Source: Planctomycetaceae bacterium
GTDB lineage: Bacteria; Planctomycetota; Planctomycetia; Planctomycetales; Planctomycetaceae
Length of the DNA stretch: 37,783 bases
Assembly: GCA_009691905.1 (NCBI GenBank)
Contig: SIAF01000006.1
Coordinates: 1 to 37,783, forward strand
Reading direction: 5' to 3'
Under the pieces are notes generated by a model, which worked only from the letters and a program-made list of their open reading frames with translations, was not told the origin of the DNA and made no database searches. The translations under genes and the position numbers were made by a program. Below, one piece after another: positions 8,995 through 37,588 of the stretch; the first letter of the stretch is position 1; each line of letters begins with the position of its first letter.

Positions 8995-9089
8995 GATTCC
9001 TCGGTTTTCTGTGAGCCGCTGGATTGTCAGAATTACGCGGATGAAATGTTCGTGGACGCGTTATCTTCGTTGGACGCACCCCCCCGACC

Positions 9090-9110
9090 CCCCCCCTTCC
9101 TAAGGGGGGG
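9090..9110. repeat. C7/G7 hairpin
   Basis: Perfect 9-bp inverted repeat (arms 9090-9098 and 9102-9110) with a 3-base loop, between the TIGR03032 gene's end and the giant gene's start. It could form in either transcript; no T-run follows on the minus strand. Confidence 0.5.
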
Positions 9111-9205: not shown

Positions 9206-10276
9206 CTACGGACCCACGCTCAGCGTCCGCCGGATTTCATCGGTCTTGAAGCCCAGCGCCGATGGACGCCGCACGCCGGGCAGTACCACCACGTCGTACA
9301 GCTCGCGAATAACCCCTTGCAGCCACAGCCAGTGGACCAGGTCGCCGCTCTTGAGGTCGATCACGCACAGCCCGCAGTGCGCTTCGGCATCGTGTGATTT
9401 CAGGTTGTCGTCGAGGGCCAACCCCTGGAACGTGCGGTTCTCGCGGCACAGCGACAGACCCACCACCGCGTAGTCGCCGACAAACGACAGCCCCCGCAGA
9501 TAGCCGGGACAGAACGTCAGCGGCTCGAATTTTCCGGTCGTCCGGTCGACCCGCCCGAAGGAACCTGTGCCGGAATCCAGCAGCCACAACTGATCGCGGT
9601 AGATGCGCGGCGAATGTGGCATCGACAGCCCGCTGGCGATGGTCTCGTTGGTGCGCACGTCGAGCACGCAGCCGCCATCCCGCCGCCGGTCGCGCCAGCC
9701 GTCGGCCACGTCGCTCTGACTGACGGCGGTCACATACGCCGGCCGTCCGTTCTCGAGCGCCAGCCCGTTCAGGTGGCAGCGGTCTTCGGCCGCCAGCTTC
9801 GACAGGAACGGCGGCCGCCACAACGGGACGAAACTGTGCTTGTCGCTGATCGTCGCCAGACAGCCGAACAACGTGTTGACGAACACGACTTTCCCGTCGG
9901 CGTCGACCGCCACGTCGTGAATGTCGAGATCGCCGATGACGTAGCCGACCCGCGGAACGTAGACGCGATCGAACCCGTTGGCAGCCTCTCCGGGGGGGAG
10001 CGCGTTCTCGAACCGCCAGAGCTGATACAGCGACGTCATCCACAGCGTCTGCCCGTCGCCCCACAGTCCCAGGCAGCGGTTGAATGTCCGCTCGAACAGC
10101 GACAGCCGCCCGTCGGGCTGGAGGCCCGCGAGAAACAGTTTGCCCGTCTGATAGGTGGTGAATGCGAGACTGACGCGCTGTTCCGCCAGCCAGGCGGTGA
10201 ACTGGCGGGACGCCAGCACTTCCAGGAGCGGCGTGTCAGAAGATGAGGGCACCGAGGGCAAGTCGCTCGTCGTCAT
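9206..10276 (-). CDS. TIGR03032 (DUF4915) family protein
   Basis: About 356 aa from the ATG at 10276 (an in-frame ATG at 10303 would add nine residues). The sequence follows the TIGR03032 family along its length: FTTYQTGKLF near the N-terminus, GDLDIHDVAVD, FVNTLFGCLAT, WRPPFLSKLAAEDRCHLNGLA, MPHSPRIY, DSGTGSFGRVD, PGYLRGLSFVGDYAVVGLS and a C-terminal LPGVRRPSALGFKTDEIRR. The family has no established reaction; its repeated strand motifs suggest a beta-propeller-like fold (inference). No signal peptide is seen. It is divergent to the 988-aa gene, with start codons overlapping in TCATGA, so its promoter must lie inside the neighbouring gene or its real start is elsewhere. Confidence 0.85.
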   Translation of the reverse strand: MTTSDLPSVPSSSDTPLLEVLASRQFTAWLAEQRVSLAFTTYQTGKLFLAGLQPDGRLSLFERTFNRCLGLWGDGQTLWMTSLYQLWRFENALPPGEAANGFDRVYVPRVGYVIGDLDIHDVAVDADGKVVFVNTLFGCLATISDKHSFVPLWRPPFLSKLAAEDRCHLNGLALENGRPAYVTAVSQSDVADGWRDRRRDGGCVLDVRTNETIASGLSMPHSPRIYRDQLWLLDSGTGSFGRVDRTTGKFEPLTFCPGYLRGLSFVGDYAVVGLSLCRENRTFQGLALDDNLKSHDAEAHCGLCVIDLKSGDLVHWLWLQGVIRELYDVVVLPGVRRPSALGFKTDEIRRTLSVGP

Positions 10277-13241
10277 GAGACAAGCAGCCTGGCTGGTATT
10301 CAAGGTGCCCGCGACGGCCCGCGTCCCCTACAACGTCGCGGGGCTGCTCGACTGGTCGGCGCTGGAGCCCAACCTCAACCCGATCGCCGCCGTCGGCCCG
10401 AACCCCACGGCCGATCAGGTCGCCAATGTTCCCGCGATCGCACCCCCCGGCGCGCTCGAGACGGCGATCGAGTTGCCGTATCACCTGACCATCTCCCCCA
10501 ACCGCGACGCGACCTGGGACCACCGCCTGGGTCCTTTTACATCGCGCGGACGGACCGAGCTGTGGCACACGCGACTGTGGCGCAAAACCGCCGCTGGCCC
10601 GGCCGAGCCAACCCACGACGCCCCCGCCCTGCTGCGCGCGATCTGGTCGCCCGACTATAGTTCGGGCGCCTTTCCCGACCCGAAAGCCCGTGACAACGAC
10701 CTCTTCCGCACCGCGATGTCGGCCAACGACCGGCACCAGATCGTGATCCTGACGTCGGCCTTCCACGGCTACGAAGTCGAGATCAACTTCCTGGGCCTGG
10801 GCGGGCTCCACGCGCTCGCCGCGGGCCTGCTCAGCGGGGCCATCGACCGGGTGCCGCGGGGAACGTTCACGTTCACCGAAACCTACGTCCCGCAGCCGTT
10901 CGGAGCCGAGTTGCTGATGCTCTCGCCGCTGGGAGGCTGGCTCAGATCGCGCGGGCACTGGAACCCGCCCAAGCGGTCGCGGCCCATCGTCTTCCATCCC
11001 CGGCCCAACTTCAATGACCTGCTGCAGAACCTCGCCGTCATCCCGAGGATTGCCGCCGGGGGGGCCGTCGTGCCGGCGCCCGCGGCCTTCTTCGAGGAAA
11101 CGCTCAACCTCTCAGAATGGATACACGTCGCCACGCAGGGGCGCGACCATTACGTGCGAATCGTTTACGAGGGCGAGCTCTGGCCGTTCCGCCACCGTGC
11201 AGCGCTCGTCAAGGTCACCGAGCGGAAGTTCGAAGACAACGGCACGACCGTGGGCGCCTATCTGATTCAGCGCATGTTCATCATCGTGCGTGAACCCGTC
11301 AAACAATACGCCGCGTCGGCGCGCGCGACGCCGTTCCGACAGGTCCGGCTGACCACGCTCGTGACCCCCGACATTGCCGACCCGCTTTCGACCCCGACGC
11401 CGATCGCGAACACGGGGCAGACGTTCTGGGTCGAGGTCACGACCGGCCCATCTCCAATCGATCGCGCCCCCTTCATGTTCCATGCCGTGGGGACCGACGT
11501 CGCCGGACACGACGTCGATTTCACAGTCCCGCTCATGTTCGTCTCGCTCGACGACACCGACAACCACCGTCCGGCGGTCGCGCTGGGCTACAACTCCCCG
11601 GCCTTCTTCGACCGCCGCGTCGCCCTGGTGCCGGGCCAGAAGCTGGCCTTCGCCGCACCTGACCCCGCCGCGGCCACCGACAACACGCGGCTCGTCGCCC
11701 GCAAAGTGCATCTCGTGGCCGACGCCGCGGGCGGTCCTCCTCCCATGCTCGCCGCCCTTGTGCAGGTGCCGCAGGTGCAGGAACTGCTCGGCACCGACGG
11801 GGCCACCACGATCCGCCACTTCGCCGGGTACCTCTCCAGCGACTTCGATGCCGCGAGCGGCGTCTTCGCGGAGATCGCCAAAATCAACCCTGGGGCTGCC
11901 ACGGCGGCCAACCCCTTCGCGGCCGTGACCGCCGACACCCTGGGCGTGGCCTTCAGCTCCGAAAAGGCCGGGGGCTTCGCCACGCCGAACCTCGGGATCT
12001 CGAGCTTGACCCGCAAGCACGGTCCGGTCGCCGGCAAGGTCGCCGACGCTGTGGCAGACAGCTTCGACCCGTCGGCATTCTTCGGTAAGGGATTGGCCAG
12101 ACTGTTCGGCACCTTCGACCTGGCCGACCTGCTGCCGCCGGCCACGCTCGGGCAGAATGCCCCCAAAATGGTGACGACGACCAAGGACATTCCCGGCGGC
12201 AAGCAGGTGGTCACCACGCTCGACTGGAAGCCTGCGTTTCTTGAGCCCACCGGTCGGCTCGCCGCCGGCAAGGTTACCGAGATCATCAAGAATGACAAAG
12301 GAACCAGCGCCCTGGCGATCCACGGCGAAATCGTCAAGCAACTCAAGACCGGCGGCCCCCCCGACCCCGGCTCGTTCACGATGACCGGCACGCTTAACAA
12401 CTTCCAGGTCGGCGTGCTTAGTTCGGTCTATATCCACTTCTCCATGTTCTCGTTCACCGCGAAGTCGGGCCAGAAGACCGACGTGACGGTGAGCCTCGAC
12501 CCGGAGCAGCCCGTCGAGTTCAGGGGGGATCTCGCTTTCATCGAAGAGTTGCGCAAGGCGATCCCGCCCGGATTATTCGGAGACGGCCCGAGCCTCGACA
12601 TCACCCCCCAGGGAATCCGCGCGGGGTTCTCATTCGCGCTGCCGCCGGTGTCGGTGGGGGTCTTCGCGCTGAAGGATGTGAGCCTCGGCGCCGCGCTCAC
12701 GCTGCCGTTTATCAGCGGCAAGCCGGTGTTCGACTTCAACGTGTCGGAACGCCAGCATCCGTTTCTGCTGGCGGTGTCCCTCTTCGGCGGCGGCGGGTTC
12801 TTCCACCTGCAGCTCGACACGGCGGGGATCAAGCTGCTCGAGGCCGCCTTCGAATTCGGCGCGGCGGCGGCCATCGACATCGGCGTGGCCAGCGGCGAAG
12901 TCCACATCATGGCGGGCATCTACTTCGCCATGCAGCGCAAAGAGAACAGCACCGATCTGGCCTGCATCCTCTCGGGCTACCTGCGACTGGGGGGTTCGCT
13001 CAGCGTGCTCGGCCTGATCAAGGTCTCGGTCGAGTTCAACCTGAGCTTCACCTACGACAGCGTGAAGGACAAGGCCTACGGCCGCGCTACGCTGACCGTC
13101 CAGGTCGAGGTGCTGTTGTTCTCGACCTCCGTCGAGTTGACCGTCGAGCGTGCGTTCGGCGGGACGAGTGGCGACCCGACGTTCGCCGAGTTGATGGACA
13201 CCCCGGCACACTGGGGCGAATACGCACTCGCGTTTGCCTGA
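10275..13241 (+). CDS. Large protein of unknown function, 988 aa, beta-rich C-terminus
   Basis: I do not recognise a named family. Start chosen at the ATG at 10275, where MRQAAWLVFKVPATARVPYN begins a plausible folded N-terminus; an upstream ATG at 10155 would add 40 low-complexity residues lying wholly inside the TIGR03032 gene. No signal peptide or clear transmembrane helix. The N-terminal half (to about 520) is mixed, with aromatic-rich strands. The C-terminal third (about 750-970) alternates hydrophobic and polar residues and is glycine-rich (FGGGGFFHLQL near 837; FGAAAAIDIGVASGEVHIMAGIYFA; LRLGGSLSVLGLIKVSVEFNLSF; LLFSTSVELTVERAFGG), which suggests amphipathic beta strands in a barrel, solenoid or lipid-binding sheet (inference). 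The 1452-aa gene follows after 14 bp, so they are almost certainly co-transcribed. Confidence 0.8.
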   Translation: MRQAAWLVFKVPATARVPYNVAGLLDWSALEPNLNPIAAVGPNPTADQVANVPAIAPPGALETAIELPYHLTISPNRDATWDHRLGPFTSRGRTELWHTRLWRKTAAGPAEPTHDAPALLRAIWSPDYSSGAFPDPKARDNDLFRTAMSANDRHQIVILTSAFHGYEVEINFLGLGGLHALAAGLLSGAIDRVPRGTFTFTETYVPQPFGAELLMLSPLGGWLRSRGHWNPPKRSRPIVFHPRPNFNDLLQNLAVIPRIAAGGAVVPAPAAFFEETLNLSEWIHVATQGRDHYVRIVYEGELWPFRHRAALVKVTERKFEDNGTTVGAYLIQRMFIIVREPVKQYAASARATPFRQVRLTTLVTPDIADPLSTPTPIANTGQTFWVEVTTGPSPIDRAPFMFHAVGTDVAGHDVDFTVPLMFVSLDDTDNHRPAVALGYNSPAFFDRRVALVPGQKLAFAAPDPAAATDNTRLVARKVHLVADAAGGPPPMLAALVQVPQVQELLGTDGATTIRHFAGYLSSDFDAASGVFAEIAKINPGAATAANPFAAVTADTLGVAFSSEKAGGFATPNLGISSLTRKHGPVAGKVADAVADSFDPSAFFGKGLARLFGTFDLADLLPPATLGQNAPKMVTTTKDIPGGKQVVTTLDWKPAFLEPTGRLAAGKVTEIIKNDKGTSALAIHGEIVKQLKTGGPPDPGSFTMTGTLNNFQVGVLSSVYIHFSMFSFTAKSGQKTDVTVSLDPEQPVEFRGDLAFIEELRKAIPPGLFGDGPSLDITPQGIRAGFSFALPPVSVGVFALKDVSLGAALTLPFISGKPVFDFNVSERQHPFLLAVSLFGGGGFFHLQLDTAGIKLLEAAFEFGAAAAIDIGVASGEVHIMAGIYFAMQRKENSTDLACILSGYLRLGGSLSVLGLIKVSVEFNLSFTYDSVKDKAYGRATLTVQVEVLLFSTSVELTVERAFGGTSGDPTFAELMDTPAHWGEYALAFA

Positions 13242-13255
13242 TCGAAGGGCTTGTC

Positions 13256-16200
13256 ATGACCTCCGAACAAACAATTCTGTTCACGGTTCTCGCGCGGGGC
13301 GTCGCCACCGACGGCCGCGCCACCGCCGTTTCCGTCTATGTCTCCCCCAGGCTCCGAGGAGCCTCGGCGCTGGGTTCCTTCCCTGATTGGCTGCACTGGA
13401 CCCGGCGCCTTCACGACCACGGCCTCGTGCTCGAGTTCGCAAGCGGCGGCGCGACGACGAAAGTCGCCGTCGACAAGTCCCCGCTTCGCCCCGACCTCTG
13501 GGAGCAGATCTTCCACCAAGACACGCTGGTCCGCTCCCACGCCTTCAACGACTACACCGACCGCGGCATCCTCTCGTACCCCGTCCGCCAGGCCCTCAGC
13601 GTCCTGAAGACGATTTACCAGGAAGCCGCAGTGACCCTCGCGCTTCCCGACCCTGAAGGGTCTTCCCGCAACCGCGACGGCGGCAACCGCGACACGCTCC
13701 GCAGACTGATCGACGGCCTGGACGTCCACTGGAACGGCGACCGCGCCAAAAGCTGGCGCGACGCCGTCCGCCAGTCGTACCGCTCGATGCGCGCCAACCA
13801 GGCGCAGCAGGCCCTCTCTGGCCCGCTCGATGCCGAGGGGCTGATCGAAGCCAGCCCCGATCCGGCAGCGTTCCAGAAGGTCGCCGTGCCGTTCGCCGTC
13901 TTCCACCATATGCCAACCCCTCCGCTCGACGACCTGGTGATCGACACCGCCACGGTGCTCGATTTCCACCAGGCCCTGAGTGCCCTGAACGCCTATCCCG
14001 CTCTGCTTCGCGCCCTGGGCCTTGTGTTCGACATCGCCCTCCCCGAGGGCTTCCTGAAGCCCACGCCGCTCGGCCAGATCGGCACGGTCTCGGTCGTCCC
14101 GACGGGCTTCTCCTGGGAGACGCCGACAAAAACCCCCGCGCTCACGACCGGCTATATCAACTACACATCCGGCCAGGCTCATCTCTTCGGCAACGCGCCG
14201 CGGTCGCTTGCCGATCCCTCGGCGCCGACGTCGGTGATCGGCCTGCTCGATCTCGACGGCACCCGGTTCGGGCTCGCGCAGGTCGATGTCGACGGCGGGA
14301 TGCACAAGGCGATCATGCTCGCCGAGACACTGAACAACCCCGACCCCGCACGCAACCTCGACCCCGACGCCCAGCCCGAAGACGCGGCCCACCCCGAGGT
14401 CTTCGACCCCGAGGCAACCCTTCCCTCCCTCCGGTCGGGGGGCCTGTCGCTGTACGCCGACGCCCGCGGCTTGCAGCTTCTCGACATGCTTTCGCAGTCG
14501 AAGACGTTCAACAACGCCGTCGAGTCGGGGGGCGTTCAGCACCGGCCGTTTTTCGCCGAAGACCTCGTGCGCGGCTTCCGGCTCGATGTCTGGGATTCGC
14601 GGACCGGCCACTGGCATTCCCTGCATCGTCGCGACGGTGACTACCTCATCGGTGAACTGCCGTTCCACACGACCGACGAAGAGGGCTTCATTCAGACCGC
14701 CGTCACCCAGCCCGCTAAAGGGGCGTCGCCCGAGACGAACGACCTGTACATCCACGAGGCCGTCGCCCGCTGGGCGGGCTGGAGCCTGAGCGTCAGCCGT
14801 CCTGGGAAGCACCTCAGCCGCCATGCCGATCCTGATAAGGCCGTTCCCCCAAACGCCGCCGATCCCGACTTCCTTGAAGACCAGCCCGACACCCCCTTCA
14901 AGATGACCGTCGATTACCAGGTCGTCGCCGGCAGCCTCCCCCGGCTCAAGTTCGGCGCGCGCTACCGCATTCGTGCCCGCGCCGTCGACCTCGCGGGCAA
15001 CAGCCTGTTGGTTGACGACGCGATCGCCGATCGCCTCGCGCGGCTTTTCGCTCTTCCCCGTGACCCCGAGGGGTTCACTTATCTTCGCTACGAGCCTGTC
15101 GGGGCGCCGCTGCTGATCCTTTGCGACCCGCGCGGCGTCACCGATCCCGGCTCGGCCCTCGACCGCCTGGTGATCCGCACGTTTAACGCCGCTCCCGATC
15201 AGGACGCTGCCGCGGCCGACCAGGGCGCCGGCGAGCGGCACCTCGTCCCCCCGCGCACCAGCGTCGAGATGGCAGAGCGACTGGGGATGTTCGACGATGC
15301 CGCCGGCAAGCTCAAGAGTGACGCCGCGACCTGGCAGCTCATCGGCCAGCGCGACGCCGGAAAAATCCCGTCGGCTTCGTTGACGATCGCCGGCATGACC
15401 GACGACTACCCCGTTGTCTCCGACGATCGCATCGACGAACTGCCTTATCTGCCCGACCCCCTCTCGCGCGGCGCGGCGATCCGCGACCTGCCCGGCGCGC
15501 TCGTCGGATCGATCGGCCAGGTGCGCCCCGGTGCGGGTGCGTCGGGACCGATCACGTATGTCCCCCTGAGCGACCCCAACCCGAGGCCCGGCTCGGCCAC
15601 GCTGATCAGTTTCGGCGGCGAGGCCGACTGGCAGGGGACGGTGGGCTTCCGTCTTGCGCTGGAAGAGCCTCCGCCAGGCCCAATCGAACCTGCACCGACC
15701 TGGGATCCCGCGGCGCGGGTGCTCACGGTGTTCCTGGCGAAGGGGCAAACCAGGGTCGTCCCGGTCACCAGCTATATGACTCCCGAGGACCTCAACCTGA
15801 TGGGGGTCTGGCAATGGCTCAGGGGATTTGTCGAACGGATCACCGTGACCAACCCGCGCCCCGAATACCTGGCGCCCGGGCAGAGCGTCGATCGACTCGC
15901 GCACGTCCTGCAGCGCGCGGTCGAAGGGGGGCACTGGATGCTCACGCCGCCCAGATTAGTCACCCTGGTGCATGCCCTGCAGCAGCCGCTGGGGCGCCCC
16001 GAGTTTTGCGCGCTGCGCGTGCTGCACGAGGTGAAGCGCGAGCAGGGCAACCCCCCGCTGCAGTCCGAATCTGTGACAGACGTCGCCGACCCGAACCAGC
16101 TTGCACCGATCGTCGCCCTGCGCCGGCCGGGCGCCACCGATGCCTATCTCACAGGCGCCCTGAAAATCCACGGCGCTTCCACCGCCAAGGTCGATCTGTT

Positions 16201-17614
16201 TGCGTTGTGGGTCGACCCGGTCGACGACCTGTCGGCTCCCGGCCCGACCTCCATCAGCCGAACCGCTCATGTCGACGAGATCCCCCTGCCTGATCTCCGC
16301 GAGGCGATCCTGCTTGCGCCCGGAACCGACCGCCGGTCGGTCGGCCTGTACGACCCCCAGCACGACCAGATCGCGTTTATCCGCTCAGGCGACCGCTGGG
16401 GCTCGCCCGACGAGAATCAGTTCGCGTTTTTTGCCGACGCCGCGCCCAGGCACCTGCTGGGAGACGCGAAACACCATCGCGTGACCTATTCGGCCGTCGC
16501 CGCTTCGCGTTACCGCGAGTATTTCCCCCCCGACGTGCCGAACGGGTTCACCCGCGAGAGTCACCCCGTGGTGGTGGGCGTCCCCGCCTCGATTCGCCCG
16601 CTCGCCCCCGACGTGGCGTTCGTGGTTCCCACGTTCGGCTGGCAGCGACAGACCGACACCAACCTGAAGCGAAGCATCCGTTTCGGCGGCGGTTTGCGGG
16701 TTTACCTCAGGCGTCCCTGGTTCTCGTCGGGAGAAGGCGAATTGCTCGGCGTCGCCCTCTGGAGCGACACCAACGGCAACCTCACCAATTTCAACCGCGA
16801 CAAGTTCAAGCCGTTCATCACCCAATGGGGCATGGACCCCATCTGGCAGACTGCCCCGCTGGGGTTCGTCCCGACCACCTCGGCCTTCCCCGACCGGGTC
16901 GCGATGGACTGCCCGGTGAGCCTCGACGAGCGGACGGCCCGGGCACCCGATGGGTCGCCCGGCAGGGTTGACGTCGTCGGGTTTCCCGCCGAGTTCGACC
17001 CCGAGCGCAAGCTGTGGTTCGCCGACCTGACCATCGATACTCCGGGCGAGACGTATGCCCCATTCGTGCGGCTGGCGCTGGTGCGTTACCAACCGCACGC
17101 CCTGGCCGATTCGAAGGTCTCGCGCGTGGTGCTGGCCGACTTCGCCCAGTTGACCCCCGACCGCACCTTGACCATCACCGCCGACCCGCATCACCCCCGA
17201 GCCCTGCGCGTGGCTGTCTCGGGCGTGGCGCCACGGGGCCCGCAGGCCGTGTTCCGCGGTTCCCGGCGATTGCACGGCAACATCGAGCGACCGACGCAGG
17301 TCCGCGTCCGCGTTCAGCGTCGCGACCCGGTGCTCGACTCCGACCTCGCCTGGTCTGATGTCGGGACCGACGTCGCCGCCATCAACGCGTCGCACGACGG
17401 TCCCACGCCGCTTGACCCCGATCTGGCCCTCTGGTCGGGAACGGTCAGGTTCGTGAAGGTTCCCGAGCCTGGCGAGTTTCGCCTGCTCGTCGAGGAATTC
17501 GAATTCATCTCGGCGAACTACAACCTGGTGCAGGACGACGTCATCAAGCACCCGAGCCGCCTGATCTACGCCGAGTCCATCGTCCTCGACACCGCCCTGG
17601 TTGGCGGCGTCTGA
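13256..17614 (+). CDS. Very large protein of unknown function, 1452 aa
   Basis: No family recognised. The ATG at 13256 has a GAAGGG ribosome site about 7 bases upstream. N-terminus LFTVLARGVATDGRATAVSV lacks a signal peptide. Visible landmarks: SFPDWLHWTRRL (about 40-52); a stretch around 569-583 (RYRIRARAVDLAGNS) like the core strand of bacterial Ig-like folds; a second beta-rich half with FGGEADWQGTVGFRLALEE (about 785), FKPFITQWGMDPIWQ (about 1185) and a C-terminus GEFRLLVEEFEFI ... PSRLIYAESIVLD. The gene has many C-ending codons and long stop-free antisense frames caused by that bias. Close coupling to the 988-aa gene suggests the two products act together, possibly as subunits of one large assembly. 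I cannot assign a function. Confidence 0.82.
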   Translation: MTSEQTILFTVLARGVATDGRATAVSVYVSPRLRGASALGSFPDWLHWTRRLHDHGLVLEFASGGATTKVAVDKSPLRPDLWEQIFHQDTLVRSHAFNDYTDRGILSYPVRQALSVLKTIYQEAAVTLALPDPEGSSRNRDGGNRDTLRRLIDGLDVHWNGDRAKSWRDAVRQSYRSMRANQAQQALSGPLDAEGLIEASPDPAAFQKVAVPFAVFHHMPTPPLDDLVIDTATVLDFHQALSALNAYPALLRALGLVFDIALPEGFLKPTPLGQIGTVSVVPTGFSWETPTKTPALTTGYINYTSGQAHLFGNAPRSLADPSAPTSVIGLLDLDGTRFGLAQVDVDGGMHKAIMLAETLNNPDPARNLDPDAQPEDAAHPEVFDPEATLPSLRSGGLSLYADARGLQLLDMLSQSKTFNNAVESGGVQHRPFFAEDLVRGFRLDVWDSRTGHWHSLHRRDGDYLIGELPFHTTDEEGFIQTAVTQPAKGASPETNDLYIHEAVARWAGWSLSVSRPGKHLSRHADPDKAVPPNAADPDFLEDQPDTPFKMTVDYQVVAGSLPRLKFGARYRIRARAVDLAGNSLLVDDAIADRLARLFALPRDPEGFTYLRYEPVGAPLLILCDPRGVTDPGSALDRLVIRTFNAAPDQDAAAADQGAGERHLVPPRTSVEMAERLGMFDDAAGKLKSDAATWQLIGQRDAGKIPSASLTIAGMTDDYPVVSDDRIDELPYLPDPLSRGAAIRDLPGALVGSIGQVRPGAGASGPITYVPLSDPNPRPGSATLISFGGEADWQGTVGFRLALEEPPPGPIEPAPTWDPAARVLTVFLAKGQTRVVPVTSYMTPEDLNLMGVWQWLRGFVERITVTNPRPEYLAPGQSVDRLAHVLQRAVEGGHWMLTPPRLVTLVHALQQPLGRPEFCALRVLHEVKREQGNPPLQSESVTDVADPNQLAPIVALRRPGATDAYLTGALKIHGASTAKVDLFALWVDPVDDLSAPGPTSISRTAHVDEIPLPDLREAILLAPGTDRRSVGLYDPQHDQIAFIRSGDRWGSPDENQFAFFADAAPRHLLGDAKHHRVTYSAVAASRYREYFPPDVPNGFTRESHPVVVGVPASIRPLAPDVAFVVPTFGWQRQTDTNLKRSIRFGGGLRVYLRRPWFSSGEGELLGVALWSDTNGNLTNFNRDKFKPFITQWGMDPIWQTAPLGFVPTTSAFPDRVAMDCPVSLDERTARAPDGSPGRVDVVGFPAEFDPERKLWFADLTIDTPGETYAPFVRLALVRYQPHALADSKVSRVVLADFAQLTPDRTLTITADPHHPRALRVAVSGVAPRGPQAVFRGSRRLHGNIERPTQVRVRVQRRDPVLDSDLAWSDVGTDVAAINASHDGPTPLDPDLALWSGTVRFVKVPEPGEFRLLVEEFEFISANYNLVQDDVIKHPSRLIYAESIVLDTALVGGV

Positions 17615-20580: not shown

Positions 20581-21834
20581 CTACCCCACGGGATCGACTG
20601 CGCAATCTTCCACGCGGCCTTCAACTCGCGGATTCGGCTGGCCCATCCGCCGCAACCAGCGAAAATGTGAACCTAATCCCGCGCTGAAAGTGCCATGTTC
20701 GGCATACCGCACGCCATATTCGCGGCACGTCGCTTCGACCACTTGCGAGATGGCCGGGTAATGGACGTGGCACACGCGCGGGAACAAATGATGTTCGATC
20801 TGAAAGTTGAGGCCCCCCAGGAACCAAGCGGCCGCCCGGCTCGACCGGGCGAAATCGACGGTGGTCTCGACCTGGTGAATGGCCCACGTGTTCTCGATGG
20901 TGCCGGTGTCCGCTCGCGGAAGGGGAAACTCAGCTTCTTCGACGCTATGCGCCAGTTGAAAGACAATGCTGAGCACCATTCCCAGGACGATTGCGGTCAC
21001 GGCATAAACTGCCAGCACCACCCCGATCGAATGGAACATCAGCGGAATTCCAAACAACAGCGTGAAAAATACCATCTTGCCGGCCACAAACACGAGCAGG
21101 TCGGATCTCGTCGGTCGCGGAAAGGCATGCTCGCCGAGCCGCCCTTCGGCCAGTTGACGAAAATCGTCAAAGAAATGCCACTTCATTGCCATCATGCCGT
21201 ACAGCGGCCAAAGGTAAATATGCTGCCAACGATGAAACGGCAAGCGCGGCTGGTGAGGCGACAATCGGCCCAGCAGCCCCAGTTCGATGTCGGTGTCGTG
21301 CCCGGTGATGTTGGCATAGGTGTGATGCAGCACGGCATGTTTCCAATGCCAGATGTACGAACTGCCCCCCAGGACGTCCAGCGATCTGGCCATCAGTCGA
21401 TTGATCCACGGTCGATTCGAATAGGCGTTGTGGCCGCCGTCATGCTGAACATTGAACCCGATCGCAGCCGCCGACAAACCCAGCAGCGCGGCCAGGGGCA
21501 AGGCCTGCCACCAAGCCTGGGCGACGAACACCAGCAAGCCGTACGCCGCAGCGAGGCAACTGAAGAGAATGGCCGTCTTGAGGTACATCGGCCAGCAATC
21601 GCGTTCATTGTGCCCGGAACTGACGAAGTAGTCGTCGACGCGGCGGCGAAGCTCGGCATAAAAGCCGCTGTCCCTGAGGAATGTCAGTTTCTTGTCAGGG
21701 GTGGCCGCGCGCTGGGGCAGGTTCGGGGCACAATCGATTACGGGTGACTCGAGCAGAATAGTACGGTCCTCATTCAATTTGGGATGGACTTCGGTTAAAG
21801 GATACAGTTTTTTCCAGGTTCCTGCCAAGGTCAT
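20581..21834 (-). CDS. Membrane fatty acid desaturase (acyl-CoA / acyl-lipid type)
   Basis: 417 aa. It introduces a double bond into membrane fatty acyl chains using a di-iron centre, at the cytoplasmic membrane. The three histidine boxes are complete: H131DGGH135, H166AVLHH171 and Q345IEHH349. The glutamine-type third box (QIEHH) is that of the front-end (delta-5/delta-6-like) and linoleoyl-CoA-like group; no cytochrome b5 domain is fused. Hydrophobic segments are around 85-128 and 245-293. The first ~50 residues are a non-conserved cytosolic tail. Divergent from the cold-shock gene across about 143 bp, which suggests shared temperature control (inference). Regiospecificity cannot be told from sequence alone. 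Confidence 0.9.
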   Translation of the reverse strand: MTLAGTWKKLYPLTEVHPKLNEDRTILLESPVIDCAPNLPQRAATPDKKLTFLRDSGFYAELRRRVDDYFVSSGHNERDCWPMYLKTAILFSCLAAAYGLLVFVAQAWWQALPLAALLGLSAAAIGFNVQHDGGHNAYSNRPWINRLMARSLDVLGGSSYIWHWKHAVLHHTYANITGHDTDIELGLLGRLSPHQPRLPFHRWQHIYLWPLYGMMAMKWHFFDDFRQLAEGRLGEHAFPRPTRSDLLVFVAGKMVFFTLLFGIPLMFHSIGVVLAVYAVTAIVLGMVLSIVFQLAHSVEEAEFPLPRADTGTIENTWAIHQVETTVDFARSSRAAAWFLGGLNFQIEHHLFPRVCHVHYPAISQVVEATCREYGVRYAEHGTFSAGLGSHFRWLRRMGQPNPRVEGRVEDCAVDPVG

Positions 21835-21977: not shown

Positions 21978-22175
21978 ATGCCAGAGGGAACTATCAAATC
22001 GCTGACGGAAAAAGGTTTCGGGTTTATCGACACCGGAGCCGAGAAGGACATGTTTTTTCACATGTCGAACGTCGAAGGGGTGCGCTACGATGACCTGCGC
22101 GAAGGACAGCGCGTGTCATTCACCGCCGGGCAGGGGCCGAAAGGTCCGCGCGCCGAAAATGTCAAGCCCATCTGA
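21978..22175 (+). CDS. Cold-shock domain protein
   Basis: 65 aa, a single cold-shock domain that binds single-stranded RNA or DNA and acts as an RNA chaperone. RNP1-like KGFGFI and RNP2-like MFFHMS are present, in the order expected (GTIKSLTEKGFGFIDT, then DMFFHMSNVEG). Start at 21978 because GAGGA (21964-21968) is 9 bases upstream and MPEGTIKS is the usual family start; the ATG at 21969 touches the ribosome site and would add three residues. The RNP1 phenylalanines are kept. A strong hairpin follows the stop. Its divergent partner is the desaturase. Confidence 0.92.
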   Translation: MPEGTIKSLTEKGFGFIDTGAEKDMFFHMSNVEGVRYDDLREGQRVSFTAGQGPKGPRAENVKPI

Positions 22176-22238: not shown

Positions 22239-22943
22239 TCAAAACGGGACCGGCAGCAGGAACGCATGGTGTTCGAACAGTACGCCTTTGCCGTGCGCGC
22301 CGATGAATTGCGTGAAGAACAACAGGAACACGTACAGGACCAGCAGCGGCACCAGCACCAGCCGCGACAGCCGGCGAATCGTCGTGGCGACAAATCCGTC
22401 GCCGATCTGCCGGCCGACGAATCGGTGGAATCGTCGCAGTTCGCGACGGGCGTTGAGCCGACCGAGCGCGTCTTCGCTTGGTTTGGTCGTCGAGTCGATG
22501 CTTGCCATGCCCTGATCGACTCGATGTGCCACCGCGCCCCGCTCTTGCCACTGCGTCACGAGCATCTCCGGCGACGGCGACGCATCGGTGACGCGAACCC
22601 GCGCCCGATGGTACGCCCAGCCGGTGATCACCTTGACGGGGTAGATACTGACGATAAAGACGATCGTGACCAGCCACATCGCGTCGGCAGGCGGCAGTGC
22701 GATTTTGAAGAGGTACATGGGCAGCGCCAAGGTCAGCGTGATCAACATGGTGATCAGCCACGAGAACGGGGCATTGCGGTACAGCTCACGAATCGTTCGC
22801 AACTCGAACATCGCGCCGAATCGATTCTCGGCAGCAAAGTGTGCCTGCAAAAACGGCAACCAACTGAAAACCAGCATCAGCAGCCCCCCCCCCGACCAGC
22901 GTCGCCAGAATCGGTAGCCCTTCGGTCTTGTTCGTCGCGGCAA
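22239..22943 (-). CDS. Polytopic membrane protein, C-terminal part (same gene after frameshift)
   Basis: The C-terminal half of the preceding gene in another frame. Genuine sequence starts near 22890 (LLMLVFSWLPFLQAHFAAENRFGAMFE); the first ~18 residues from the ATG at 22943 are an out-of-frame artefact. Hydrophobic segments: about 20-32, 60-77, 88-104 and 205-222. A charged cytosolic stretch (about 110-190) lies between the last two. It ends 12 bp before the shared hairpin. No own ribosome site was identified at 22943, which supports one frameshifted gene rather than two. No function can be assigned. Confidence 0.65.
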   Translation of the reverse strand: MPRRTRPKGYRFWRRWSGGGLLMLVFSWLPFLQAHFAAENRFGAMFELRTIRELYRNAPFSWLITMLITLTLALPMYLFKIALPPADAMWLVTIVFIVSIYPVKVITGWAYHRARVRVTDASPSPEMLVTQWQERGAVAHRVDQGMASIDSTTKPSEDALGRLNARRELRRFHRFVGRQIGDGFVATTIRRLSRLVLVPLLVLYVFLLFFTQFIGAHGKGVLFEHHAFLLPVPF

Positions 22944-23814
22944 AGAGTGCCGTGGGAACGATCAGCCAGATCATGGCTCCTGCGTAGCCCCGCAGTCCCA
23001 GCCAGAAGTGATGCTTCAGCTTCAATTCCGACACGAATTCATGCACTGCGGAATCGGCATGCGACCAGTAGTCGCCCTCGCGCCAGCGTGCGAACAGCCA
23101 GCGGATATTCCTGATCGGGCGAACGAAAGCGCCGAGACTGCCGCCGCGGGCCAGCGCCAGGCACAGGTGGACGGCGATCACGACCGCCAGTACGACGATC
23201 AGGCGATGCAGCCCAAGCTCCAGTCGTGAGCCCGGTTCGATGAGTCGCGCATCGGCAGCGGCATTCGCCAAAAATCGCAAGGGAATGACCCACAGCGTGA
23301 GCCCCAGAAAAATCGACCCCAGCCGCGGGGCCAGGCCGACGAGCGGAAAGGCGTCGCGCAGCCGACCCGATCGCGCAACCCGGCCTTCGACCTCAAGCAG
23401 ATAGCCCAGTGCCAGAAAGTTGACGATCGGAATCGCCGCAATCACAGCCAGCAGCAGAATCAGGCTGGCGATCCCGAATAATGAACGGAGCGACCAGCCG
23501 ATCAGGCTGAAGCAGCGCCGCAGAAGCCCCGGACGCGGCGCGGCGACGGCGATCTTGTTCGAGCGGCTCCCTTCCTGGGAGAGGGCGGCCAGGCGATTGT
23601 CATCTTCTATCACTGCCGACGTTGGTTTCACGAGTCGCCGTCCGGCCGAGGCCTCGTGCGGCGTTTCCGTCTCGAAGAACTCGGTAATTTCGAGTGCGTC
23701 GTCGTCGCGCGGCAACTCAAAAGGGGCGATCCCGTGATCGATGGCCGGCCTGGTCGCAGGCCCTACCTGCGATCGACTCTCGGGTTCAGGACGAAAACTG
23801 GAATCTGGAGGCAT
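22786..23814 (-). CDS. Polytopic membrane protein, N-terminal part (frame lost at C10 tract)
   Basis: N-terminal portion of a membrane protein of unresolved family. The first ~110 residues are polar and cytosolic; hydrophobic segments follow at about 112-140 (IASLILLLAVIAAIPIVNFLALGYLL), 164-180, 205-222 and 275-300. Conserved-looking landmarks are EVEGRVARSGRLRDAFP and SELKLKHHFWLGLRGYAG. True coding ends at the G10 run (coding strand) at 22884-22893; the ~33 residues after it are out of frame. Removing one G joins ATLVGGG to LLMLVFSWLPF, giving a single protein of about 524 aa together with the downstream segment. Divergent from the DUF1549 gene. Confidence 0.75.
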   Translation of the reverse strand: MPPDSSFRPEPESRSQVGPATRPAIDHGIAPFELPRDDDALEITEFFETETPHEASAGRRLVKPTSAVIEDDNRLAALSQEGSRSNKIAVAAPRPGLLRRCFSLIGWSLRSLFGIASLILLLAVIAAIPIVNFLALGYLLEVEGRVARSGRLRDAFPLVGLAPRLGSIFLGLTLWVIPLRFLANAAADARLIEPGSRLELGLHRLIVVLAVVIAVHLCLALARGGSLGAFVRPIRNIRWLFARWREGDYWSHADSAVHEFVSELKLKHHFWLGLRGYAGAMIWLIVPTALFAATNKTEGLPILATLVGGGAADAGFQLVAVFAGTLCCRESIRRDVRVANDS

Positions 23815-23968: not shown

Positions 23969-25639
23969 ATGTCCCGCTTGCGTCATCTGTCGAAGTTGCT
24001 GCCGCTGCTGGTGGTTTTAGGGGTCGTCGCGTTGGTCTCTTGGGCGGCCCGCAGTCCGCTGCCGGCTGCCGGGACGATTTCGGAGGTGGGGACCGAACCC
24101 GAGGACCTGGCTCAACCGGTCCAGCGGATCAATGCGGCATTCGAGCGGCGGTGGCGCGATGCCGCGATCGAGCCTGCGCAGCCGGCACCCGATTTACAGG
24201 TGCTGCGGCGATTGACGCTGGCGCTGTTGGGCACGATTCCGTCGCTCGAAGAGATCCGCCAATTCGAAGCCGACACGCGCCCCGACCGCCTCGAGCATTG
24301 GACGCGTCGACTGTTGGCCGACAAACGTTTCGCCGTCTATTTCGCCGAGAGGCTGGCTCGCAGCTACGTTGGCAAAGAAGAGGGGCAGTTCGTGATTTTT
24401 CGGCGCGACCGATTCAGCAATTGGCTGGGCGAGCAGATTCAACAGAACACGCCCTACGACAAGATCGTGGGCACGATGGTTTCGTCGACGGGTTTGTGGA
24501 CGGGAAACCCGGCGACGAATTTCGTGACGGCAGCGGTCAATGACGACGGCATCGACGAGAACAAGTTGACCGGCAAGACGGTTCGGGCGTTTCTGGGACA
24601 ACGCATCGACTGCGCCCAGTGCCACAATCACCCCTTCGCCGACTGGAAGCAGGATCAGTTCGAAGGACTGGCCGCGTTTTACGGTCAGGTGCAAACCAGC
24701 CTCGTCGGCATCGAAGACAAAACAACGCGCGACGGCAAACCGGTCGATTACTCAGTCGAAGACCGCCAGACGAAAGAGCAGCGGATCGTCCCTGAGGGGG
24801 TCCCGTTCCACCCGGAATGGCTGCCCGGTGAAGGGACTCGTCGCGAGCGGCTCGCGTTGTGGTTGACGCATCCCCAGAATCGGCGTTTCGAGCGGGCCAT
24901 CGCCAACCGGGTCTGGGCGCTGCTCTTCGGTCGTGCGCTGCACGAGCCGGTCGACGACATTCCCGATCCCGACGATCCCAACGATCCCTGGGGCGAAGTG
25001 CTCAATTCCCTCGGGGCCGATTTTCGCGAGCATGGCTGCGACCTGCGGCGACTGATTCAGGTGATCGCGGCGTTGAAACCGTTTCGAGTCGGGTCGGAGT
25101 GGGGGGGTGAATCCGACCAGGCCTCGTTCGGTGAAGAGTTTTCGGCACTCAAGCGGGCCGAGGGCGAATGGGCGGTCTTTCCGCTGATTCGCCTGCGTCC
25201 CGAGCAGGTGATCGGCTCGATCCGACAGAGCGCCTCGATCCAGACGGCCGACGGCGACTCGCATTGGCTGTTCCGCGCGATTCGTCTGGTGCAGGAGGGC
25301 GATTTCGTCCGCGAGTACGGCGACCTGGGAGAAAATGAACTTCAGGATCGCGGGGGAACAATTCCGCAGAGATTGCTGATGATGAACGGCGAGCGGTCGG
25401 GCGAGGCGACGAAGGTCGGCCAGCTTAATGCTGCGGGTCGGATCGCCGTGCAGGCGTCAACCGATGAGAAATGCGTCGAGACGGCGTACCTGGTGTGCCT
25501 GTCGCGGCTGCCGACTCCAGAAGAATTGCAGCACTTTGTCGAACGGATGCAGAACAAACACGGCGATGACCGGAAGCAGGCGGTCGAAGACATGATTTGG
25601 ACTTTGTATAACGCGACGGAATTCTCATGGAACCACTAA
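23969..25639 (+). CDS. DUF1549/DUF1553 domain protein with CxxCH motif
   Basis: 556 aa. Planctomycete-type DUF1549 (about 45-235) followed by DUF1553 (about 285-545). The N-terminal hydrophobic stretch (9-26, LLPLLVVLGVVALVSWAA) is a signal peptide or membrane anchor. DUF1549 landmarks RRLTLALLGTIPS, FAERLAR and QNTPYDKIV are seen; C215AQCH219 is a heme-c-like motif within FLGQRIDCAQCHNHPF. DUF1553 landmarks: NRRFERAIANRVWALLFGRALHEPVDD and GGTIPQRLLMMNG. Paired DUF1549/DUF1501 genes are very common in planctomycetes; the biochemical role is unknown. AGGGA lies 6 bases before the ATG. It overlaps the DUF1501 gene by 13 bp, so translation is probably coupled. Confidence 0.9.
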   Translation: MSRLRHLSKLLPLLVVLGVVALVSWAARSPLPAAGTISEVGTEPEDLAQPVQRINAAFERRWRDAAIEPAQPAPDLQVLRRLTLALLGTIPSLEEIRQFEADTRPDRLEHWTRRLLADKRFAVYFAERLARSYVGKEEGQFVIFRRDRFSNWLGEQIQQNTPYDKIVGTMVSSTGLWTGNPATNFVTAAVNDDGIDENKLTGKTVRAFLGQRIDCAQCHNHPFADWKQDQFEGLAAFYGQVQTSLVGIEDKTTRDGKPVDYSVEDRQTKEQRIVPEGVPFHPEWLPGEGTRRERLALWLTHPQNRRFERAIANRVWALLFGRALHEPVDDIPDPDDPNDPWGEVLNSLGADFREHGCDLRRLIQVIAALKPFRVGSEWGGESDQASFGEEFSALKRAEGEWAVFPLIRLRPEQVIGSIRQSASIQTADGDSHWLFRAIRLVQEGDFVREYGDLGENELQDRGGTIPQRLLMMNGERSGEATKVGQLNAAGRIAVQASTDEKCVETAYLVCLSRLPTPEELQHFVERMQNKHGDDRKQAVEDMIWTLYNATEFSWNH

Positions 25640-26958
25640 ACGTGCGCGCTGATTTGGGAAGGCTTGATCGGGGATTGAAGGGACCAGGTTTCGATGCGGC
25701 TAAGCCGCGAGCGGCTCTGACGCGGCGCGACGCCTTGAAGTTGGCCGCCGGCCTGGGCTTGTCGTTTGCGTTGCCGGGACTCGAACTGCGTGCAGCCCAG
25801 TCACGCGGTGACGAGCGGCCCAAATCACTGATTACGCTGTGGATGGGGGGCGGCCCCAGCCAGCTCGAATCGTGGGATCCACATCCGGGGACGGCAATTG
25901 GCGGCCCCTGCACGGCCCTGCCGACCATGATCCCCAAGTTGGAGATTGCCGATCTTTACCCGCGCATGGCCGAGCAGATACATGAGCTGAATGTGATTCG
26001 CTCGATGGTCTCCAAAGAAGGAGACCACGAACGGGGAACGTATCTGCTCAAGACCGGTTATCGGCCCGATCCGACGTTGATTCATCCCTCGCTCGGCGCG
26101 ATCCTCGCCCATCAGCTCCCGGCGGCCGGCGTCGAAATCCCGAGGCACATTTCCATTCTGCAAGCGCAGTGGCCCTCTCGCGGCGGATTCCTGGGAGACG
26201 ACTACGACGCCTTCAAGATCTACGATCCGCGAGCGAACTTGCAAAATATGGTCAGGCGCGTCGAGAAAGACCGGCAAACTCGACGACTGCAAAGCCTGGA
26301 TGTCGTCGAACAATCGTTCCGCAAGCGGCGTCGGCTCCAGGCGGAAGGCACGCTCCACCAGGACACGATTCAGCGGGCTTTGACGATGATGACCTCTGAG
26401 CAGTTGCGCGCCTTCAAGATCGACGACGAACCGGCAGCGAATCGCGCCGCCTACGGCGACACGTCGTTCGGCGTCGGCTGTCTCGTCGCCCGGCGACTGG
26501 TCGAAGTCGGTGTTCGAGCCATCGAGGTCAACCTGGAGGGGTTCGACACGCACGCAAAAAACTACGAGGGGCAAAAGACGAATGCGGCGATTCTCGATCC
26601 CGCCTTCGCCGCCCTGATTCAGGACCTGAAAGCGCGCGACCTTCTGGAGAGTACCGTCGTGTTGTGCATCGGTGAATTCGGCCGCACGCCGAAAATCAAC
26701 CCGCTGGGGGGCCGCGACCACTGGCCCACTGGTTTCTCGTGCGTAGTCGGGGGGGGCGGTTTTCACAAGGGATTGTTGATCGGCGAAACCGATCATACCG
26801 GAACTAAAACCAATCCCGACGACCCGATCGAGGTTCATGACCTGTATGCAACGATATTGCACACACTCGGCGTCGATTACGCCAGGGAACTGAACACTCC
26901 CATCGGCAGGCCGATGGCGCTGTGCAAAGGGCAGCCGATCGATCGGTTGCTGGTGTGA
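25627..26958 (+). CDS. DUF1501 domain protein with Tat-like signal
   Basis: 443 aa, alkaline-phosphatase-superfamily-like DUF1501. A twin-arginine-like signal is set back from the start: LTRRDALKLAAGLGLSFALPG, with Arg33-Arg34. Domain landmarks: SLITLWMGGGPSQLESWDPH, MVSKEGDHERGTYLLKTGYR, EGFDTHAKN, GEFGRTPKIN at 349-358 and GRDHWPTGF. The Asp/His-rich motifs resemble a metal-binding sulfatase or phosphatase centre, but no substrate is known. It starts within the end of the DUF1549 gene (ATGGAACCACTAA), and the two likely act together in the periplasm. Confidence 0.92.
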   Translation: MEPLNVRADLGRLDRGLKGPGFDAAKPRAALTRRDALKLAAGLGLSFALPGLELRAAQSRGDERPKSLITLWMGGGPSQLESWDPHPGTAIGGPCTALPTMIPKLEIADLYPRMAEQIHELNVIRSMVSKEGDHERGTYLLKTGYRPDPTLIHPSLGAILAHQLPAAGVEIPRHISILQAQWPSRGGFLGDDYDAFKIYDPRANLQNMVRRVEKDRQTRRLQSLDVVEQSFRKRRRLQAEGTLHQDTIQRALTMMTSEQLRAFKIDDEPAANRAAYGDTSFGVGCLVARRLVEVGVRAIEVNLEGFDTHAKNYEGQKTNAAILDPAFAALIQDLKARDLLESTVVLCIGEFGRTPKINPLGGRDHWPTGFSCVVGGGGFHKGLLIGETDHTGTKTNPDDPIEVHDLYATILHTLGVDYARELNTPIGRPMALCKGQPIDRLLV

Positions 26959-34006: not shown

Positions 34007-34183
34007 GTCATTCGAATACTCGGTTTCGTCGCATTTCCAGCGCTGCTTTGCATCCACACCCTGTGTTGATGTAAATTATCCAGTTGGCAAAGCTTGCATG
34101 AACACTTTAGTCCCCGCAGACGTTCAAATCTCGCCAGTCTGCCGGAATCGCGTTCAACCAGTTATTCGAGTTCAACAAACACG

Positions 34184-37100
34184 ATGATCGAAAATTGTGA
34201 ACGGCTCCGCCGATTTGCCATTGAAATGGCTTTGATTGCGGTGGTTGGCCTGTTTCCCCTGGGACAGGTTCGGGGGCAGGAACCCGCAGCGAGCGCTGCG
34301 CCGCAGCCGCCGGCGGCCGTTCAGAGCGAATGGGAACGGTTGATTTACGTCCCCTATCGAAATCTGAAGCAGGTTTTCGAGAAGGAAGACTCGACGGTGC
34401 TGATGCCGTACGGCCGGTTTCTCAAGCTCTGGGAGCGACTGCAACGCATCGATCTGTCCCAGCCGGCCAAACCACCGGTCAACGCCGTCATCACGAGTGC
34501 CGCCTATACAGGCCGTATTGAAAAGGACGTCGCCCGCATCAATGTCGAACTGACGATTCAGGTGCTCGGCACGCCGTGGGTCGAAGTTCCGATTCAGTTC
34601 GGCGAGGCGGCCATCGGCAAGATGACCGCGAGTGACGACAAGGTGCTGCTGCAGGGGACCGGGAACGGCGCCTATTCGCTGTTGTTCCCCAAACCGGGAG
34701 AGCACACAGTCAAGCTCGAGCTCGCGACGCGTATTCGCAGCTCGCCCGATGGCCGCAGCCTCGACTTCGATTGTCCGGCGGCAGGCATCACGACGTTCGA
34801 CCTGTCTGTCCCGGCGGGCGATCAGTCGGTTGAAATCGTTCCGCAAGGGGTGCAGACGACCGCCCAGACCGACGAGAACTCGACGCGGGTCAAAGCCAGT
34901 CTCGGCGCTACGAAAAAGATCGTCGCTCGCTGGCGTCCGCGAGTCAGCACCGCCCCGGTGATGGAAGTTCTGACGAGTGTGCACAATACGCTCGACGTGC
35001 GGATCGCCGACGGCCTGGTGCATACGCACGCGACGCTGACGTATCAGGTTCTTCGCGGCCAGCTCGATCAGATCAGGGTCGCTGTGCCGCTCGAACATCG
35101 CGTGCTCGATGTCACGACCCCCGGCCTCAAGTCGTGGAAGGCGGTCGCCGAACAAAAATCACAGGTGCTGACGATCGATTTGCTGGGGGGCGAATCGAAG
35201 TCGATTGTCATCGAAGTGCACACCGAGCGGCCGGCCCCAACCGGGGCGTTCGAGCCGGCGGGGGTCGACGAAACGGGCGTAGCACATGGCATTCATGCGC
35301 TGGGCGATGTCCGCGAGAACGGATTGCTGGTGATCGGCCAGTCATCCGATTTGTCGCTGACGGTCGAGCAGCAATCGGGGCTGGTGCGGGTGGAAGCCGC
35401 CGAAGTCCCCGAAGCCCTGCGCCGCCCCGAAACGCTGTTCTACAAGTTTTACACGCCGAAGTTCGCTTTGAAGGTCGTTGCCCGGCCGGTCGAGCCGCGG
35501 CTGCTGGTCGAACATTTGACGCAACTGGTGTTCCGCGACGACGAATTACAATTGACGTCGCAACTGCAATATGAAATTGAGCGTGCCGGAGTGTTCGAAT
35601 TGCGGTTTAAGCTGCCCGCCGGTCTGAAAATCGACCGGGTCGTCTGCGATGAAATGAAAGAGTTTCAGACTCCCGAGGGGGCCGACCAGTTGATCGTCTC
35701 GCTCCAGGAAAAGACAGAAGGTCAGATTGTACTGGAAGTCGTCGGCCACCTCGCGCTCGATCCCAACGATAAAGAGTCACACCCGCTGCCGCTGCTTGAG
35801 CCGCTGGCGACGTCACGCGAAGACGGCACGCTGGCGGTTTACGCCCCCGAGTCGCTGGAAGTGATTGCCGACGAGAAGGGGGTCCAGGGGGCGCAACCGA
35901 CGCGCATCGACCCCAACCGGATCGCGCGTTTCGCCAATGCGCGACTCGTATCGGCCTGGGCCTATAACCGGCATCCTGAGATACCGGTGCATACGCAGCG
36001 CAAGCCGACGCGGCTGAGCGCCGCCGTCGCGACGGTCGTCAACCTCCGACAGGATTTGACCGAGGTCACGACCCTGATTAACTACAACGTCTTGTTCGCG
36101 GGGATCGACACGTTTCGATTCGCGGTTCCCGAGGGGGTCGCCGACAGCGTGCAGATCGAAACGATCGATGCGGCGTCGCTGCCGATCAAACAGAAAAGCC
36201 GCGATGAACAGGCAGTCGACGGCTGGGTCACATGGACGCTCGTGCTGCAGCGGGACGTGACCGGTCTGGTTCCGATTCGGGTGCGTTACGACCTCAAATC
36301 GCCGGTGGGCGACGATCAGAAAATCAAACAGACGATTGTGCCGGTGCAATTGCTGCGCGTGCTGGAGACTCCCGGAAAGGACGAAGGCGACCCGGCGATT
36401 GTCATGGCGTCGGTCTCGGGCGAGATCATCGTCCAGAAAGATCGCGCCCTCTCGGTTGCCGCGAAAGCTGACGACCTCGAACCGATCGACGTCCGCGAGT
36501 TAACGCTGCTTCCGTCCGAAGGCTATCTCGCCTACCGGTATTTCAAGCAGCCCGAGCAACTGGCGACCTCCTTCACACTCGAGCTGACCGAGACGCGCAA
36601 CGACATCCAGCCGGTTGTCGAAACGGTCGTCGATCGAGCATTGATCGAGGCGGTCGTCACCGAAGACAAGTCGGTCACCTATCGATGCCGCTATCGACTG
36701 CGGACGAGCGAACGCCAGCGGTTGTCGCTCGACCTGCCCGAGAACGCCGAAATTCTCGATACGCTCGTTGCCGGTAAACGGGTGAAGCTCGAAAAGGGGG
36801 CGGCGAGCGGTTCCAAAGAGTCCCGCGAATGGGATTCGTTCTACGTCAACGTGGCCCGGTCGACCCCGTCCGACGAGCCGTTCGTGATGGCGCTGGTCTT
36901 CCGCGCTCCGTTCACTGATTTTCCGCTGCGAGGGCAGGGGGGCAATTTGAGGCTGCGACTGCCACGACTGGGCGGTACAGACGAGTCGGGTCAGCCGGCC
37001 GTCGCCTTGCAGCAATTGCGAACGGCCCTCTGGGTTCCGCGTGAATTCGCGCTGGTCGGCACTCCCGAGGGATTCACCCCTGAGCAGACGACCGAATTGA

Positions 37101-37588
37101 CGCTCGCACGCGGCGCCGTCGGTTACGCCTCGAGCACGCAGGAACTCGAAAACTGGTTCGGTGATTCGGCCGGGGGGCTGTTCGCCTTCACGCCGGCCGG
37201 CAAGGCCTACCTCTATCACCGACTGGGCGCTGTAAATGCGGTTGAAGTCAGCTACTGGCGCACGGCCTGGTATACGTGGATGATCAGTGCCGCTGTGGCC
37301 CTCGTCGCGTTCGTGCTTGTCCGCACTTCATGGGAAAACCGCCTGACGCTGGTGCTCGTGGCGGCATTGGCGGCAGCATTGTATGCCCTGCGCGATGCCG
37401 ACATTGTGGTCAACGTGCTCGGTGCTGCGCGCTTCGGCCTGCTGGCGATGGGGGCGTACTGGCTGATCCACGCTTTGACTCGCCCGCGGCCCAAAACAAG
37501 CGGAATCACGTTCCGTTCCGGTGACCCCGCCGCTGCGGTTTCGGCTTTGGGTGCGGTGCTGCCGCCGCCGGGGTTGTTTGACAAGTAA
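34184..37588 (+). CDS. Large exported, C-terminally membrane-anchored protein (unknown family)
   Basis: 1134 aa from the ATG at 34184, which is followed by a good signal peptide (RRFAIEMALIAVVGLFPLGQVRGQ). The frame is open upstream to 34094, but that extension (RRRSNLASLPESRST) does not look like coding sequence. The long ectodomain (about 35-1020) is beta-rich without a recognised catalytic motif; repeated phrases such as FELRFKLPAGLKIDRV, FRFAVPEGVADSVQIE and RLSLDLPENAEILDTL suggest repeats of one Ig-like domain. At the C-terminus two to three transmembrane segments (about 1025-1100, MISAAVALVAFVLV, LTLVLVAALAAALYAL, GLLAMGAYWLIHAL) anchor it, leaving a short tail. It follows the VIT/VWA gene by 271 bp, separated by a strong palindrome. 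Function unknown. Confidence 0.82.
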   Translation: MIENCERLRRFAIEMALIAVVGLFPLGQVRGQEPAASAAPQPPAAVQSEWERLIYVPYRNLKQVFEKEDSTVLMPYGRFLKLWERLQRIDLSQPAKPPVNAVITSAAYTGRIEKDVARINVELTIQVLGTPWVEVPIQFGEAAIGKMTASDDKVLLQGTGNGAYSLLFPKPGEHTVKLELATRIRSSPDGRSLDFDCPAAGITTFDLSVPAGDQSVEIVPQGVQTTAQTDENSTRVKASLGATKKIVARWRPRVSTAPVMEVLTSVHNTLDVRIADGLVHTHATLTYQVLRGQLDQIRVAVPLEHRVLDVTTPGLKSWKAVAEQKSQVLTIDLLGGESKSIVIEVHTERPAPTGAFEPAGVDETGVAHGIHALGDVRENGLLVIGQSSDLSLTVEQQSGLVRVEAAEVPEALRRPETLFYKFYTPKFALKVVARPVEPRLLVEHLTQLVFRDDELQLTSQLQYEIERAGVFELRFKLPAGLKIDRVVCDEMKEFQTPEGADQLIVSLQEKTEGQIVLEVVGHLALDPNDKESHPLPLLEPLATSREDGTLAVYAPESLEVIADEKGVQGAQPTRIDPNRIARFANARLVSAWAYNRHPEIPVHTQRKPTRLSAAVATVVNLRQDLTEVTTLINYNVLFAGIDTFRFAVPEGVADSVQIETIDAASLPIKQKSRDEQAVDGWVTWTLVLQRDVTGLVPIRVRYDLKSPVGDDQKIKQTIVPVQLLRVLETPGKDEGDPAIVMASVSGEIIVQKDRALSVAAKADDLEPIDVRELTLLPSEGYLAYRYFKQPEQLATSFTLELTETRNDIQPVVETVVDRALIEAVVTEDKSVTYRCRYRLRTSERQRLSLDLPENAEILDTLVAGKRVKLEKGAASGSKESREWDSFYVNVARSTPSDEPFVMALVFRAPFTDFPLRGQGGNLRLRLPRLGGTDESGQPAVALQQLRTALWVPREFALVGTPEGFTPEQTTELTLARGAVGYASSTQELENWFGDSAGGLFAFTPAGKAYLYHRLGAVNAVEVSYWRTAWYTWMISAAVALVAFVLVRTSWENRLTLVLVAALAAALYALRDADIVVNVLGAARFGLLAMGAYWLIHALTRPRPKTSGITFRSGDPAAAVSALGAVLPPPGLFDK

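Follow-up and report, generated by a model that had tools for sequence, protein, structure and literature searches.

A long homopolymer inside a membrane-protein gene has the build of a contingency locus. Among the systems described so far, homopolymer phase-variable genes, for example those of M. tuberculosis, carry a long homopolymer whose length decides whether a gene product is expressed, and the available part of the report on that species describes homopolymer-length variation as an adaptive mechanism (PMC11898584). Another class of split genes consists of singleton frameshifts, in which one conserved protein is split in a single record and has no split relatives; the portion at hand of the GeneTack survey of prokaryotic frame transitions sees indel mutation or sequencing error behind most such singletons, and expects one category of them to hold errors and not true indels (PMC3711429). 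As for transcription, the accessible sections of a study on E. coli and Buchnera state that insertions prevailed in A/T runs and that deletions seldom coincided with homopolymers (PMC5574713). A literature search pairing planctomycetes with phase variation brought up no report on the subject in the partial texts that it returned.

In this report, we analyze a gene of a Planctomycetaceae bacterium that is split at a run of ten C. The run resides in what we call the window, which is the whole stretch of 37,783 nucleotides that was analyzed and also the whole of contig 309 of a draft genome (490 contigs, 6.36 Mb, 93.7% complete). The locus is akin to the GeneTack singletons, and differs from them, as the available part of that survey presents them, in that it breaks at an unusually long homopolymer (PMC3711429). 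It shares with the phase-variable genes of M. tuberculosis a long homopolymer, but the run of ten G on its coding strand (G10) is not conserved in relatives. Our main finding, as judged from alignments, is that this is one gene, broken only in the source record among those read, at a run that the relatives do not conserve.

The run and the frame jump

The original prediction was that a C10 tract splits a membrane-protein gene. The tract is indeed present on the plus strand, where it occupies positions 22884-22893 exactly (G10 on the coding strand), and relatives carry both halves of the gene in one frame. The features of the region are the following.

20581..21834, minus strand: fatty-acid desaturase-like gene
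21978..22175, plus strand: cold-shock protein gene
22239..22943, minus strand: second frame, listed with a TTG start and 234 aa long; homologous to relatives from about residue 18, that is, from the run onward
22786..23814, minus strand: first frame, 342 aa; homology to relatives covers residues 1 to about 309, after which come 33 residues of out-of-frame tail
22884..22893: run of ten C (coding G10) at which the coding frame changes, from the sequence, the codon-usage frame test and the frame map
23969..26958, plus strand: DUF1549/DUF1553 and DUF1501 genes, on the other side of the split gene

By itself, the C10 run is only mildly unusual, and somewhat rare: dinucleotide-shuffled windows contain on average 0.24 C10/G10 matches, with at least one match in 16 of 100 shuffles, and the source genome holds 15 C/G runs of at least 10, or about 0.09 per window-sized stretch (14 of the 15 match the pattern forward and all 15 reversed, the extra run ending a contig). 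What needs explaining is the frame jump. Codon-usage scores are strong on either side of the run and in different frames, 38 to the left and 37 to the right; since, moreover, the single frames of relatives align to both halves (to the first until about residue 309, to the second from about residue 18), the jump is not due to chance. It is the sole in-gene frame jump of the window on a coarse 300-base frame map, a resolution at which short in-gene jumps could escape.

The N-terminal frame, read from 23814 to 22786, ends in ATLVGGG followed by AADAGFQLVA and further residues out of frame, which agrees with the prediction of a non-matching tail. The C-terminal frame, read from 22943 to 22239 (234 aa), has the sequence SGGGLLMLVFSWLPF; it was expected to continue the protein after the run, and its homology to relatives bears this out. 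The first ATG past the run is at 22877, six bases after the G-rich run. About 70 residues of the second half (window 22374-22592) are absent from most aligned relatives; at that position L025 carries a shorter insert.

The predicted neighboring genes give no hint of a switch. Elsewhere in the window, positions 9079-9110 hold an intergenic palindrome made up of long runs of C and G (C7, C9, then G7), found in its exact form only in L077, which is the same place, with a similar core visible in L067. Three long frames (10155-13241, 13256-17614 and 34094-37588; 1028, 1452 and 1164 aa, respectively) have no Pfam match at E <= 1e-5, and near position 18000 the G+C content goes from 0.62-0.68 on the left to 0.59-0.62 on the right, and the GC skew changes there too.

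One open frame in the relatives

Both halves lie within one open frame at 29 of 29 relatives' loci (30 were fetched, one being the window itself). A second, larger set, which shares many genomes with the first, gave the same picture: all 100 loci were unsplit and none split, over 78 distinct site sequences. These counts support the proposal of a single gene whose frame is offset by one base at the run; in the orthologue check for a full-length frame, 0 of 29 and 0 of 100 loci from overlapping genomes are split, so that orthologues are not consistently divided at this point.

Matches to the first half were obtained in 45 of the 59 genomes searched, and matches to the second half in 148 of 170 genomes of the family, the source genome being included in both counts; many of the 22 genomes without a second-half match are incomplete. 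At the second-half matches listed, the open frame is of at least 391 aa, except in the window (240), in G166 (287) and in one second-piece row, G119:C34 (80), the last two adjoining contig ends that are respectively 400 and 89 bases from the match. The sole other genome of the genus that was compared (G001, 66% complete) had no match to the gene. Aligned with its eight best relatives, the second half is 71-78% identical over about 100 residues, and at these same loci the identity of the first half is 39-61%. Loci with the gene include Gimesia, Schlesneria, Thalassoglobus, Planctomicrobium and others, which makes it a planctomycete protein. By homology, the two overlapping minus-strand frames each encode one half of a single conserved membrane protein of planctomycetes, and neither half would be expected to work alone.

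The break site in the protein

The break falls at a pair of glycines, Gly308-Gly309, that is invariant in an alignment of both halves with 20 relatives. The same pair (residues 258-259 of the orthologue L200) is at least 90% conserved in 33 full-length orthologues, and other residues replace it in a few of the 100 loci, such as L158, L199, L211, L228 and L239. The glycines at the break are written GGG GGG GGG in the source genome, and relatives mostly use other codons; the G10 run thus exists because a conserved Gly-Gly-x is encoded with GGG codons in the source lineage. Across the 78 distinct sequences of relatives, the longest G run at the site is 2 to 6 long in 77 and 8 long in one, and this single G8, which belongs to one genome (L011, L162 and L221 being the same), is in frame.

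In the modeled structure of L200 (mean pLDDT 85.8, pTM 0.80), the glycine pair is predicted to lie inside a helix of 30 residues (250-279). A fold search with this model against solved structures gave 102 matches at E <= 10, none of them at E <= 0.001 (best E 0.19), and an NCBIfam search with three proteins returned no family. DUF4013 (PF13197), on which the partial texts found in the literature comprised only a cotton study, matches 29 of 33 orthologues at E <= 0.01. Its matched region in L200 (219-317) spans the break site at 258-259, and the second half of the window gene matches the end of the domain (E = 0.0003), the first half having no DUF4013 match. The resemblance to DUF4013 therefore lies in orthologue matches that span the break; the difference is that L200 (26.4 bits) and the second half of the window gene (21.1 bits) do not reach the curated cut-off of 26.9 bits. 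As 29 of 33 orthologues match, a distant relation of the protein to DUF4013 is still likely.

Run lengths in the assembly

The codon-usage frame test was applied to 135 C/G runs of at least 8 in the source genome, namely 70 of the 71 runs of length 9 or more (the 71st ends a contig and was left out) and, from the 270 of length 8, a set of 65. Because the window and these same stretches, with the exception of L077 and L078, also served to train the codon model, the test is partly circular. Coding was confident on both sides and on one strand for 68 runs, of which 65 kept the same frame and 3 did not; the 67 runs without a verdict had coding on one side only (48), on neither side (16) or on different strands (3). 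One break, at L126, was dropped as an intergenic hairpin between two genes, which leaves 2 breaks in 67. Testable coding runs of at least 8 are thus in frame in 65 of 67 cases (34 of 34 for length 8, 27 of 28 for 9, 2 of 3 for 10 and 2 of 2 for 11 or more). Breaks affect 1 of 5 runs of at least 10 versus 1 of 62 shorter ones, a difference that is not significant (Fisher p = 0.14). With 65 of 67 runs in frame, we rejected the idea of a generally indel-prone assembly, and a real indel at the C10 run stays plausible.

At L059 (contig 187 of the source genome), in a run starting at 902, nine C break the frame of a conserved-looking protein with an offset opposite to that of the C10 case, as expected of undirected length noise; from its motifs, we take this protein to be subtilase-like.

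Counts of C/G runs in the source genome drop steadily with length, from 270 (length 8) to 56 (9) and 15 (10 or more), with no excess of long ones. Runs of at least 9 are enriched within 300 bases of contig ends (10 of 71 versus 3.3 expected, p = 0.0015), an enrichment that was set aside, several of these runs lying, by eye, in repeats common to contigs. In the pairs L071/L089 and L074/L091, long G/C runs at most 300 bases from contig ends have look-alike flanks between contigs, and on visual inspection these runs seem to lie in dispersed repeats.

Discussion

We consider it probable, if far from certain, that the gene split is a one-base length miscall or a population length variant in a lineage-specific run. 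The length of the G/C run in the assembled record would be one base out of register, so that one multi-helix, DUF4013-like membrane-protein gene looks split. The recorded length would be either a miscall, arising from polymerase or read stutter, or one length out of a population in which lengths vary; it would differ from that of most cells, and the gene would probably be intact in most living cells. Sequencing error, phase variation and slippage had all been left open by the original prediction. The comparison with relatives appears to favor error or variation of length within the population, since the run lacks conservation and the same glycines are encoded without it in relatives; a conserved switch, for the same lack of conservation, is without support. 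Also in favor of a miscall or length variant are that the split is a singleton, that the genome is a draft of 490 contigs, and that the L059 run breaks a frame with the opposite offset.

The main rival of a miscall or length variant is a genuine recent frameshift, that is, a one-base indel in the run that is fixed or common in the sampled population and inactivates the gene, leaving a young pseudogene that plays no part in switching. We regard it as possible, though rather unlikely. The usual accuracy of the assembly on long runs renders a real change plausible, and the 22 of 170 family genomes without a second-half match, many of them incomplete, suggest that the gene may be dispensable; yet there is no other sign of decay, with no further frame break and with downstream conservation and codon usage intact. 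If real, the break would not be old, given a codon score of 37 after the run against 38 upstream and the 71-78% identity of the second half. The second alternative is a functional length switch, in which slipped-strand phase variation, transcriptional slippage or ribosomal frameshifting would yield a variable full-length fraction, and it seems unlikely to us. It is suggested only by the run itself: a membrane-protein gene with a G10 midway along it resembles a contingency locus in its layout, and length variation of this type is the adaptive mechanism described, in the part of the report available, in M. tuberculosis (PMC11898584). Against this, the tract is not kept in orthologues (apart from one G8, the 78 site sequences have at most G6), long C/G runs are not in excess in the source genome, and in E. 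coli and Buchnera, by the sections of that study at hand, transcription insertions favored A/T runs and deletions seldom went with homopolymers (PMC5574713).

A conserved programmed transcriptional slippage or ribosomal frameshift was rejected, since neither the run nor the split recurs in any relative read. The lineage-specific G10 might work as a switch whose length, at the level of DNA or of transcripts, determines the number of cells that make the conserved planctomycete membrane protein, which we judge quite improbable. That the locus consists of two genes, the second starting independently, is scarcely credible. The ATG at 22877 does follow the G-rich run by six bases, which leaves room for the run to be a weak ribosome-binding site. 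Yet none of the relatives' loci is split in either set, the residues from the TTG at 22943 to the run have no counterpart in relatives, where homology starts near residue 18, the relatives do not share the Met at 22877, and the break site is predicted to lie within the 30-residue helix of the modeled orthologue. No credible independent start for the second part was thus found, and an independent second gene was rejected.

For annotation, the two frames are best taken together as a single conserved gene whose base count is doubtful. Should reads reveal several lengths that coexist stably, the locus would become a lead on homopolymer switching in planctomycetes.
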